Source of the DNA: Nautilia profundicola AmH
Lineage (GTDB): Bacteria > Campylobacterota > Campylobacteria > Campylobacterales > Nautiliaceae
Direction of reading: 5' to 3'
Assembly: GCF_000021725.1 (NCBI RefSeq)
Contig: NC_012115.1
Coordinates: 390,501-454,500 of the forward strand
Length of the DNA stretch: 64,000 nucleotides
Position 1 is the first letter of the stretch, and each line of letters starts with the position of its first letter. This document shows positions 4,675 through 42,600 of this stretch, in pieces. Below the pieces are notes generated by a model, which saw nothing but the letters and a program-made list of their open reading frames with translations, made no database searches and was not told where the DNA came from. The translations under genes and the position numbers were made by a program.

Positions 4675-5598
4675 ATGGCTAACATTACTGCAGCAATGGT
4701 AAAGGCGCTTAGAGAAAAAACTGGTGCCGGAATGATGGATTGTAAAAAAGCTCTTGTAGAAGCTGAAGGTAACGAAGAAAAAGCGGTTGAGATCCTAAGA
4801 AAAAAAGGTCTTGCGAAAGCTGCTAAAAAAGCTGACAGAAATGCTGCTGAAGGTAGAGTTGAAATTTATATCAGCGACGATTACAAAAAAGGAAGTATCG
4901 CAGAAGTTAACTGTGAGACTGACTTCGTTGCTAAAACTGACGAATTTATCGAATTCGTTAGCGAAACTGTAAAAACTATCAATGTAAACGACATCGCTGA
5001 CACTGAAGCTCTAAACAAAGCTCCGTTCGGTGCCGGAACATTTGAAGAAGAACTTAAAGTTAAAATCGCTAAAATCGGTGAAAACATCGTAGTTAGAAGA
5101 ATCGGAACTATTAAAGCTCCTGAAAACGGAATCGTAAACGGATACATCCATGCAGGCGGAAAAGTTGGTGTACTTGTAGCGGCTGCATGTGACAGCGAAA
5201 AAACTTGCGAAGCTATCAAAGATACTTTAAGAGATATCGCAATGCACATTGCTGCAATGAAACCTCAGTACCTAAACCCTGAAGCGGTACCGGCTGACGT
5301 TATCGAAAAAGAAAAAGAAATTGCAAAAGCTCAACTTCTAAAAGAAGGTAAGCCTGAGCAGGTAATCGATAAAATCATCCCTGGTAAAATTAAAAGATTC
5401 TACAGCGACGTATGTGTTACAGAGCAGGAATACGTAAAAGCAGAGAAAAAAGAAACTGTTGCTGAAGCTCTTAGCAAAGCGGCAAAAGCTGCTGGCGGAG
5501 AAGCTAAACTTGTTGACTTTATCAGATTCGAAGTTGGTGAAGGTTTAGTTAAAAACGCATGCAACATGGCGGATGAAGTAGCGGCGGCTCTTTCTTAA
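4675..5598 (+). CDS. tsf: Elongation factor Ts
   Basis: Guanine nucleotide exchange factor that regenerates EF-Tu-GTP. The N-terminal UBA-like domain is typical (REKTGAGMMDCKKAL at residues 13-27), followed by the conserved TDFVAKTDEF segment that contacts EF-Tu. The length of 307 residues is within the family range. It is translated from the rpsB message: the rpsB stop and tsf ATG are one base apart, and the ribosome binding site GGAGG lies within the last rpsB codons. A large repeat-filled spacer follows; I see no convincing hairpin terminator just after the stop. Confidence 0.97.
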   Translation: MANITAAMVKALREKTGAGMMDCKKALVEAEGNEEKAVEILRKKGLAKAAKKADRNAAEGRVEIYISDDYKKGSIAEVNCETDFVAKTDEFIEFVSETVKTINVNDIADTEALNKAPFGAGTFEEELKVKIAKIGENIVVRRIGTIKAPENGIVNGYIHAGGKVGVLVAAACDSEKTCEAIKDTLRDIAMHIAAMKPQYLNPEAVPADVIEKEKEIAKAQLLKEGKPEQVIDKIIPGKIKRFYSDVCVTEQEYVKAEKKETVAEALSKAAKAAGGEAKLVDFIRFEVGEGLVKNACNMADEVAAALS

Positions 5599-5627: not shown

Positions 5628-5640
5628 AGTGTCAGGCACT
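5628..5640. repeat. 13-base palindromic dispersed repeat, copy 2
   Basis: AGTGTCAGGCACT, 29 bases after the tsf stop codon; same AGTG-N5-CACT frame as the other copies. Confidence 0.75.
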
Positions 5641-5842: not shown

Positions 5843-5855
5843 AGTGACAGACACT
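5843..5855. repeat. 13-base palindromic dispersed repeat, copy 3
   Basis: AGTGACAGACACT, upstream of the heptamer array; identical to copies 1 and 6. Confidence 0.75.
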
Positions 5856-5920
5856 GATGTATTTTTAATATTAATTAGTTATTTTGAGTCTTAAATTGTA
5901 AACAGCCGTCAATCAATAAC

Positions 5921-6150
5921 CATTGACCATTGACCATTGACCATTGACCATTGACCATTGACCATTGACCATTGACCATTGACCATTGACCATTGACCAT
6001 TGACCATTGACCATTGACCATTGACCATTGACCATTGACCATTGACCATTGACCATTGACCATTGACCATTGACCATTGACCATTGACCATTGACCATTG
6101 ACCATTGACCATTGACCATTGACCATTGACCATTGACCATTGACCATTGA
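5921..6150. repeat. Perfect 7-base tandem array, about 32.9 units
   Basis: The unit CATTGAC (TGGTCAA on the other strand) repeats without a visible error for 230 bases: 32 full copies plus six bases. Because 7 is not a multiple of 3, three units give seven codons; the minus strand is open in all three frames (reading MVNGQWS over and over), whereas the plus strand meets TGA in every frame. The array is bracketed by copies 3 and 4 of the 13-base palindrome, copy 4 only two bases away. Perfection over this length implies recent expansion or active homogenisation, so unit number is likely to differ between strains. Confidence 0.97.
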
Positions 6151-6152
6151 AT

Positions 6153-6165
6153 AGTGCCAGACACT
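6153..6165. repeat. 13-base palindromic dispersed repeat, copy 4
   Basis: AGTGCCAGACACT, starting two bases after the last unit of the heptamer array. Confidence 0.75.
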
Positions 6166-6353
6166 TATATTTGAGTAATTAATACACTTGTTAGCAAATA
6201 AATATACAAATAACAAATACACAAATAATTAATTAACATTACATCAAATATACCAGTGACTAATTAAGTGTAAAACCAAACTTATCTATTTAACAACTTC
6301 ACAACTTAGCCAACTTCAATAACCAATTACCAATAACAACTTTGAACTTTTGC

Positions 6354-6359
6354 TATAAT
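6354..6359 (+). promoter_or_regulatory. -10 element of the ABC ATPase-fliR unit
   Basis: TATAAT preceded by TTTTGC (extended -10 type), 18 bases before the ATG at 6378. No convincing -35 hexamer is seen, which is common for sigma-70 promoters in Campylobacterota. Confidence 0.6.
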
Positions 6360-6377: not shown

Positions 6378-7025
6378 ATGCTTAAAGCTGTAAATCTAAC
6401 ACATTCTTTCGATTATTTATTGTTTGAAGATGTTAACATTGAATTAAAGCCTACTGAAAAAATAGCAATAGTCGGAAGCAGCGGAAGCGGTAAATCAACA
6501 CTTTTACATATACTTTCCACTTTTTTACATCCACAAAGTGGAAAAGTTTTTATAAATAACAAAAATATATATTCATTAAAAGAAAAAGAGTTAATAGCGA
6601 TAAGAAAAAAAGAAATAGGTATAATTTTCCAGTTTCATTATCTTTTTAATACATTTACTGCGCTTGAAAACCTGCAGGCCGCTGCATTAATCAGTGGTGA
6701 AGAGATTGATTATAATCTGCTTGAAAGGCTTGGTATCAAAGATGTTATTCATCAAAATATCCAAACACTCTCAGGCGGACAGCAGCAACGTGTGAGCATT
6801 GCAAGAGTTTTGACTAAAAGACCTAAAATAATTTTTGCCGACGAACCTACCGGAAATCTTGATAAGCAAAATGCTTATGAAGTAATAGAAGTCTTAAAAG
6901 AGTACTGTGATGAAAACAATGCCGGACTGATAACTGTTACGCATGATATGGATATAGCGAAAAAATTTGACAAAGTATATGAACTAAAAAATAAAAAACT
7001 GGTAGAAATAAATGGAGATAATTAA
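6378..7025 (+). CDS. ABC transporter ATP-binding protein, LolD/MacB-type
   Basis: A single nucleotide-binding domain of 215 residues: Walker [10 protein letters not shown] at 33-41, Q-loop in IIFQFHYLF, signature [13 protein letters not shown], Walker B IIFADEP and the H-loop TVTHD. The subfamily resembles LolD/FtsE/MacB ATPases, which couple to FtsX-like permeases; LolD energises release of lipoproteins toward the outer membrane. No permease gene is adjacent, so the partner must be encoded elsewhere, and lolD is not certain. The same ATPase lies between tsf and fliR in C. jejuni. Its 3' end overlaps fliR by 14 bases. Confidence 0.85.
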
Positions 7026-17433: not shown

Positions 17434-17446
17434 AGTGTCAGGCACT
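17434..17446. repeat. 13-base palindromic dispersed repeat, copy 5
   Basis: AGTGTCAGGCACT, just after the fabI terminator; identical to copy 2. Confidence 0.75.
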
Positions 17447-18935: not shown

Positions 18936-18948
18936 AGTGACAGACACT
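18936..18948. repeat. 13-base palindromic dispersed repeat, copy 6
   Basis: AGTGACAGACACT, immediately after the porin terminator. Confidence 0.75.
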
Positions 18949-42432: not shown

Positions 42433-42529
42433 TTTTACCTCCTTTAAAATGCTTAAAAGTATAAATCTATAAGATTAAATTATTATTAATATAAGTTAAA
42501 ATTATATTATCAAAATTAATGTAATTTTA

Positions 42530-42559
42530 TTGACAAATTAATTCAAAATGAATTATAAT
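42530..42559 (+). promoter_or_regulatory. Promoter of the rhodanese gene
   Basis: TTGACA (42530-42535), an 18-base spacer and TATAAT (42554-42559): both hexamers are perfect consensus, 41 bases before the ATG at 42601. One of only two strong two-box promoters seen here. Confidence 0.75.
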
Positions 42560-42600
42560 TTGAGCGTAAGAAAATGAACACTCATTCAAAAGGAGAGAAA

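Follow-up and report, generated by a model that had tools for sequence, protein, structure and literature searches.

A perfect heptamer array ending beside a palindrome in the tsf-lolD spacer of Nautilia profundicola AmH, and its possible growth in place

INTRODUCTION

The genome of Nautilia profundicola AmH is described as closed, with 1,676,444 bp (CP001279), in the available text of the genome paper (PMC2628731). One of its intergenic spacers carries a 7-bp unit repeated about 33 times without error, and the array stops two bases from a short palindrome. How could such an array have arisen, and does the palindrome take part in fixing where it ends? The window analyzed here is the whole 64,000-nucleotide stretch surrounding this spacer, bases 390501 to 454500 of the forward strand; coordinates refer to the window unless given in kilobases or as genome positions.

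RESULTS

A perfect array between tsf and an ABC transporter gene

Tandem Repeats Finder placed the array (unit ACCATTG or CATTGAC) at 5919 to 6150 of the plus strand and described it as 232 bp of period 7, with 33.1 copies, 100% match, and zero indels, in agreement with an earlier note, made from the letters alone, that had reported an error-free CATTGAC run of about 33 units. The left neighbor is tsf, encoding elongation factor Ts (4675 to 5598, plus strand). The right neighbor encodes an ABC transporter ATP-binding protein (6378 to 7025, plus strand), the best NCBIfam match of which, LolD, scored below the cut-off. Three members of one palindrome family lie on the plus strand of this tsf-lolD spacer. 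P1 (AGTGTCAGGCACT, 5628 to 5640) is found 29 nt past the tsf stop codon and occupies the same place in G001, a genome of the same genus, and in G005. P2 (AGTGACAGACACT, 5843 to 5855) lies 63 nt to the left of the array, where the earlier note had rightly seen a palindrome but counted 66 bases. P3 (AGTGCCAGACACT, 6153 to 6165) begins after a gap of 2 nt at the 3′ end of the array, exactly as described there. The left edge of the array is marked by AGCCGTCAA (5904 to 5912, plus strand), a motif shared with a second array at 726 kb.

A TATAAT sequence at 6354 to 6359 on the plus strand, the probable −10 element of the right neighbor, belongs to a block conserved with G001. As it lies approximately 200 bp past the array, a direct promoter effect of the array is unlikely, and no effect on the neighboring gene is expected. 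The window gave zero Rfam matches at the gathering score, and membership of a known RNA family was accordingly discarded. In folding predictions the plus strand of the array remained unfolded, and the minus strand folded no better than its shuffles.

All three minus-strand frames are open across the array, with ORFs at 5875 to 6222 (SMVNGQW repeats in the ORF list), 5909 to 6133, and 5913 to 6164. This openness is explained by the unit itself, because a heptamer strand with no stop codon in 21 nt is open in every frame. A coding repeat was accordingly rejected, and we share the earlier opinion that any repetitive peptide would be a by-product.

Period 7 across the genome

Exact arrays with periods of 4 to 15 and a minimum length of 21 bp or of two periods plus 7 bp, whichever was greater, were sought in a sample of 490 kb from 29 genome stretches together with the window. 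All eight arrays found had a period of 7. The 490-kb sample held seven of them, compared with one array over the threshold in five order-2 Markov simulations of 490 kb each. The earlier description of the other spacers as carrying decayed units of 7 to 9 bases was partly right, in that short or degenerate 7-mer clusters are numerous; the exact arrays in this range are of period 7 only, and in the window Tandem Repeats Finder also returned imperfect arrays with periods of 12 to 23, as well as an exact array with 2.2 copies of a 16-bp unit, outside the 4-to-15 census.

A search for five TTG triplets spaced by 7 gave 88 matches genome-wide, all within three long arrays at 396 kb (the window array), 726 kb, and 1427 kb (the 1.43-Mb array), which comprise 33.1, 52.0, and 16.0 units of CATTGAC, GAATTGA, and GTTGATG, respectively. 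A 3.9-unit CATTGAC array was also identified at 244.5 kb, between AGTGACAGACACC and GTGCCTGACACC. Other heptamer arrays are thus present in the genome, the lack of which the earlier note would have counted against an active process. Five ATT or AAT triplets spaced by 7 yielded some 48 short or degenerate clusters, chosen by eye among the matches listed (100 places per list). The plus-strand ATT matches listed were 100 of 106; the other six lie beyond 1.2766 Mb and include a five-ATT match at 1505156, and one further array of several units is possible among them. This triplet census is blind to units without ATT, AAT, TTG, and CAA. The reversed-pattern control, with GTT at the same spacing of 7, gave 19 matches in the genome, 12 within the 1.43-Mb array and seven outside the approximately 601 kb of genome that was read, so that arrays away from palindromes are possible there.

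As a separate observation, two short exact arrays with the units AATGGAC and ATTTTCC lie 27 bp apart at genome positions 42504 to 42588 and are roughly inverted with respect to each other.

A family of imperfect palindromes at gene 3′ ends

The palindrome pattern RGTGNCAGNCACY occurs 66 times in the genome, compared with a single match for its reversed control. Six copies are in the window (starting at 1376, 5628, 5843, 6153, 17434, and 18936), against a mean of 0.28 for AGTG-N5-CACT in shuffled sequence, and those at 1376 to 1388, 17434 to 17446, and 18936 to 18948, all on the plus strand, have no array. Most of the 66 (57) fall outside ORFs of ≥60 amino acids. Mechanical mapping of ORFs and tRNA genes, which assigned both neighbors for 57 copies and gene-end orientation for 63, showed that 62 of the 66 are flanked by the 3′ end of one or both neighboring genes; for one copy, that before the RAYT-like gene described below, both neighbors have their 5′ ends toward it. 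Gene 3′ ends lie at a median distance of 46 nt, and values of 17 to 20 nt recur beside tRNA genes. Elsewhere in the genome 13 of the 66 adjoin a tRNA gene; a tRNA target at the array locus was rejected, the window containing zero tRNA genes. The bases that would pair at positions five and nine of the palindrome are A/A in 34 copies, C/A in 19, T/G in 11, C/G in one, A/G in one, and T/A in none, and the palindrome is therefore kept imperfect in this genome; T/A copies were found in relatives, two in G001 and one in G008.

Positional conservation was assessed from flank alignments of ≥200 bp with the palindromes within 60 bp of each other. The locus was shared with a palindrome of N. profundicola for 22 of the 28 copies in G001, 6 of 11 in G002 (57% complete), 7 of 12 in G008 (a member of another genus), 3 of 4 in G004, and 3 of 9 in the rest. 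This conservation argues for function and against recent mobility, and the family looks like a conserved protein site. The earlier idea that the palindromes mark insertions does not sit well with these positions, at gene 3′ ends and often retained in relatives; the left edge AGCCGTCAA common to two array loci is a point in favor of it.

As a repeated, extragenic, imperfect palindrome with 66 copies, the family shares a defining feature of REP sequences. It departs from them in that REP elements are mobile and differ in place, whereas the G001 copies mostly remain at the loci given above. GTAG was found within 8 nt of the 5′ foot of one palindrome and of the 3′ foot of two out of 66, and a CGTC tag as a REP mark was rejected, with 0 of 66 within 8 nt of the foot. 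A second exact copy within 600 bp, in whichever orientation, accompanies 7 of the 38 exact copies, an arrangement other than the doublets of REPINs. We found no earlier description of the family in the literature that could be searched, where the papers listed concern other subjects by their titles, and the available text of the genome paper (PMC2628731) contains no match to "palindrom".

Long arrays end 1 to 2 nt from a palindrome

The three long TTG-type arrays end 2, 1, and 1 nt 5′ of a AGTGNCAGNCACT palindrome, the 5′ side being defined on the strand with CAG in the middle. A short 3.3-unit array at 1127 kb (1.127 Mb) also ends 1 nt from a palindrome. For the 48 short or degenerate clusters, the nearest of the 66 palindromes is 1,212 bp away. 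Contact was thus seen in 3/3 long arrays versus 0/48 clusters picked by eye (Fisher P = 4.8e−5), and by a rough count that takes intergenic DNA as 5 to 10% of the genome, a chance contact would be expected for approximately 0.3 to 0.6% of arrays. Every long perfect array that could be placed adjoins a palindrome, while short runs of heptamers are scattered over many spacers; the earlier view that the palindromes belong to the story of the array is in this respect well founded.

The units vary by locus (CATTGAC, GAATTGA, GTTGATG, and AATCAAC), and with such differences the arrays are not direct copies of one another. Nor is a palindrome sufficient, as 62 of the 66 lack an exact array of ≥21 bp that comes within 12 nt of them on the 5′ side and the palindromes read in relatives stand without heptamer arrays. 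Beside array-less palindromes of the same genome there was no excess of 7-periodicity; an apparent slight excess was seen in G002 and G008. As single-stranded DNA the palindrome stem is weak, at about −2 kcal/mol. Sampled GC skew placed the origin near 50 to 100 kb and the terminus near 870 to 900 kb, from which a replication fork would meet the array and then the palindrome at 3/3 long arrays; at the short array at 1127 kb this order is reversed. The order at the long arrays would be compatible with fork stalling, to which it lends weak support.

The array loci in relatives

None of the 64 palindromes read in relatives (84 were found) had an exact heptamer array of ≥21 bp within 500 bp; in G005, a 3.4-unit array of period 8 lies 133 nt 3′ of one palindrome. 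The TTG pattern spaced by 7 is absent from G001 and G002. In G001, the tsf-lolD spacer retains P1 and contains degenerate AAT-type and ATTGACC-type heptamers with no array, and this, together with the perfection of the units in N. profundicola, supports the earlier proposal that the array is young. The G002 ortholog of the 1.43-Mb locus has the palindrome GGTGACAGACACC beside GGTTGAGGGTTAAT, approximately two degenerate heptamers rather than 16 units, and the corresponding G001 locus has no palindrome, no array, and a different neighbor. At the 726-kb locus, G001 has neither palindrome nor array; the locus was not found in G002, the assembly of which is 57% complete. These loci fit growth in place from seeds that already lay beside a palindrome.

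The shared left edge AGCCGTCAA is not predicted by local growth and speaks against a purely local origin. CGTCAA also precedes the array-less palindromes at genome positions 184336 and 363932, and the two observations together suggest that part of the family may have spread as one unit.

A RAYT-like gene near the array

A single gene in the genome matched Y1_Tnp, approximately 8 kb from the array. Its product scored 33.5 bits with PF01797 (cut-off, 23) and has HYH at residue 59 and YI..N at 118, motifs which we take to be the HUH and the catalytic Tyr of the Y1 transposase domain. With NCBIfam NF047646 (REP_Tyr_transpos) it scored 50.3 bits against a cut-off of 80, and on this basis it appears to be a relative below the level of membership. 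A copy of AGTGCCAGACACT lies 52 nt upstream of the start codon of this RAYT-like gene (genome 387942 to 388006), and a half-site, GTGACAG, is nearer to the start codon than the full palindrome.

Orthologs were identified in 16 of the 20 other Nautiliaceae searched, with 69 to 96% identity (17 of 21 including N. profundicola AmH itself). The link between RAYT and palindrome rests on the DNA upstream of this gene: of the 12 orthologs read, 4 (G000, G001, G002, and G004) are preceded by a palindrome that is complete or differs by one base, and 9 by the half-site GTGNCA or its complement, neither being found before the other three. In G012 (99% complete) there are three palindromes but the RAYT search gave no match, and G009 and G015 have the gene and no exact palindrome.

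Heptamer arrays and hairpins in other genomes

A scan of genome contigs identified CATTGAC arrays in at least 112 stretches from Bacteroidota, Chloroflexi, Cyanobacteria, Acidobacteria, and others. At 80 of these ≥112 loci, period 7 accounted for 61 of 86 other exact arrays (period 4 to 15, ≥3 units), with the query CATTGAC arrays left out of the count. Hairpins showed no excess at 279 array ends from the 112 loci listed, nearly all from other phyla (mean percentile, 0.463; 14 ends at or above 0.95 versus 14 expected). The idea that hairpins generally accompany heptamer arrays was consequently rejected: a hairpin is not necessary, and anchoring is at most a feature of this lineage. In Niastella vici, a CATTGAC array of approximately 91 exact units far exceeds that of N. 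profundicola.

Within the lineage, G008 carries a 6.7-unit TTGTGAG array, with a CCGCTTGCAAAGCGG hairpin at a distance of 9 nt. G023, of the same order and another family, contains dispersed composite elements with two hairpins with a TTC loop and two heptamer arrays, in the order GGGGCTTCGCCCC, a TTGGTCA/TTGGGCA array, a core of approximately 80 bp, ATCAGCTTCGCTGAT, and a second array with units of ACCCACT, GCTCACT, or TCTCACT. Among the 13 loci read, all of them from the plus-strand TTG matches listed, the core motif was exact in 10, variant in one, and absent in two. The units vary between copies at the same place, as though each array had formed afresh at a set position. The hairpin test on 22 array ends of this genome, the copies not being independent, gave P = 0.11. 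The RAYT-like gene of G023 (C1:1780300-1782100) has an inverted repeat, GGGGTCAGGGCTTGAATTTTGAA, on both flanks. This arrangement resembles the tyrosine transposases flanked by terminal inverted repeats in the available text of PMC3733652.

DISCUSSION

How the array could have formed

The reading that we tentatively prefer, and to which we give a little less than an even chance, is that of a young microsatellite grown in place by 7-nt slippage, with one end fixed by the palindrome and pausing at the palindrome probably provoking the slippage. The seed would be a few heptamer-like bases lying against a palindrome that was already there, and the motor would be repeated slippage of 7 nt during DNA synthesis. 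Acting as a hairpin or as the site of a bound protein, the palindrome would fix one end of the array. A polymerase pausing 1 to 2 nt before its foot would have freshly copied array units at the 3′ end, free to slip back by one unit, and such a pause probably provokes slippage. A bound protein would be a likelier obstacle than a hairpin, given the weakness of the stem alone, and it could perhaps be the RAYT-like protein. Slippage in steps of 7 nt would be the simplest motor, and the fixed end would need the palindrome.

A doubtful alternative is that a small mobile element (CGTCAA, heptamers, AT, and palindrome), perhaps scattered by the RAYT-like protein, has the array as its interior, the number and sequence of the heptamers having drifted later. 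It would account for AGCCGTCAA at the left edge of both the 396- and 726-kb arrays, for CGTCAA before the two array-less palindromes, and for the palindromes or near-palindromes that flank the arrays at 244.5, 396, 726, and 1127 kb on both sides, and the composite element dispersed in G023, of the same order, offers a parallel. However, most palindromes stay put between species (22/28 in G001 and 7/12 in another genus), the 1.43-Mb array has neither the left-edge motif nor a left palindrome, units differ between loci, and by eye no sequence shared by the G023 and Nautilia elements was seen.

That the array is an ordinary heptamer microsatellite, its contact with the palindrome a by-product of their common AT-rich spacers, we consider unlikely. 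Heptamer arrays are indeed common in many phyla without hairpins, heptameric repeats are over-represented in bacteria according to the available text of PMC4692102, and seven GTT-spaced matches fall outside the part of the genome read. Chance proximity is nevertheless a poor account of a contact of 1 to 2 nt in all three long TTG-type arrays, each with a chance of well under 1% by the rough count above, when no short or degenerate cluster comes within 1.2 kb of a palindrome.

It is improbable, in our estimation, that the RAYT-like protein nicks the DNA 1 to 2 nt from the palindrome foot and that the 3′ end is re-extended by 7-nt slippage before resealing. Perfect arrays would then grow outward from a fixed point made jointly by the palindrome family and the RAYT-like protein, and the hairpin-heptamer elements of G023 would be another product of a similar process.

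Selection of the array as a regulatory or phase-variation device for the ABC transporter gene is very improbable, and so is a minus-strand coding repeat: the array does lie upstream of that gene and its minus strand is open throughout, but the promoter-like block conserved with G001 is some 200 bp downstream, G001 has no array, and a stop-free heptamer strand would be open in all frames anyway. An array of 232 bp fits within one sequencing read of the era of the assembly. That the unit number is an artefact of assembly, as might be feared from a single published genome and the error-prone nature of perfect repeats, is hardly credible for three such arrays, each of a different sequence, in a genome for which the available text of PMC2628731 describes shotgun sequencing, small- and medium-insert libraries, the Celera Assembler, and closed gaps.

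Arrays that stop 1 to 2 nt short of a defined 13-bp site offer a place for testing slippage. The palindromes themselves, at gene 3′ ends and often kept across this family of vent bacteria, look functional.

Comparison with known repeat systems

In Nostoc, as Elhai and coworkers are said to have reported in 2008, small dispersed repeats occur in tandem heptamers, with elements inside heptamer arrays. The N. profundicola locus would resemble this reported arrangement in combining structured elements with tandem heptamers and would differ in that the palindrome is at the edge of the array, which stops there.

The palindrome family is akin to the REP/REPIN-RAYT systems, as far as the available texts of PMC3116915 and PMC3733652 describe them, in its tens of imperfect and mostly extragenic palindromes, their rarity between divergent genes, and the copy beside a single Y1/RAYT-like gene. 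Unlike those, it lacks a GTAG or CGTC tag at the foot, consists mostly of singlets, and is often conserved in place between species.

The TAACTGA direct repeats known from Beggiatoaceae, Cyanobacteria, and Bacteroidetes (PMC4679880, available text) are likewise intergenic heptamer arrays, of up to 43 copies, some of which are missing from the same spacer in close relatives, and their indels are mostly in steps of 7. They differ in having one dominant unit and in lying mostly near start codons in one species, and no palindrome contact is described for them in that text, unlike the N. profundicola arrays.

Comparable, too, are the bacterial heptameric repeats, the over-representation of which was reported in 2007, as cited in the available text of PMC4692102; examples given there are GGGAATC of Xanthomonas and GGGGA(C/T)T of Nostoc. 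Head-to-tail 7-nt units and a genome-wide preference for period 7 were found in N. profundicola also, and, as in those repeats, the arrays are intergenic, some are perfect, and their length differs between relatives. The end fixed at a genome-wide palindrome family and units that are not G-rich set them apart from the repeats of that source. Polymerase slippage is already on record there as an idea for heptamers, not tied in the available text to a fixed end point. Heptamer repeats in bacteria, with their preference for exactly seven bases, are known and unexplained; anchoring at a palindrome appears to be new within the available parts of the literature searched. Set among these systems, the array in the tsf-lolD spacer is a repeat of an ordinary type, but its setting is unusual and lends itself to testing.
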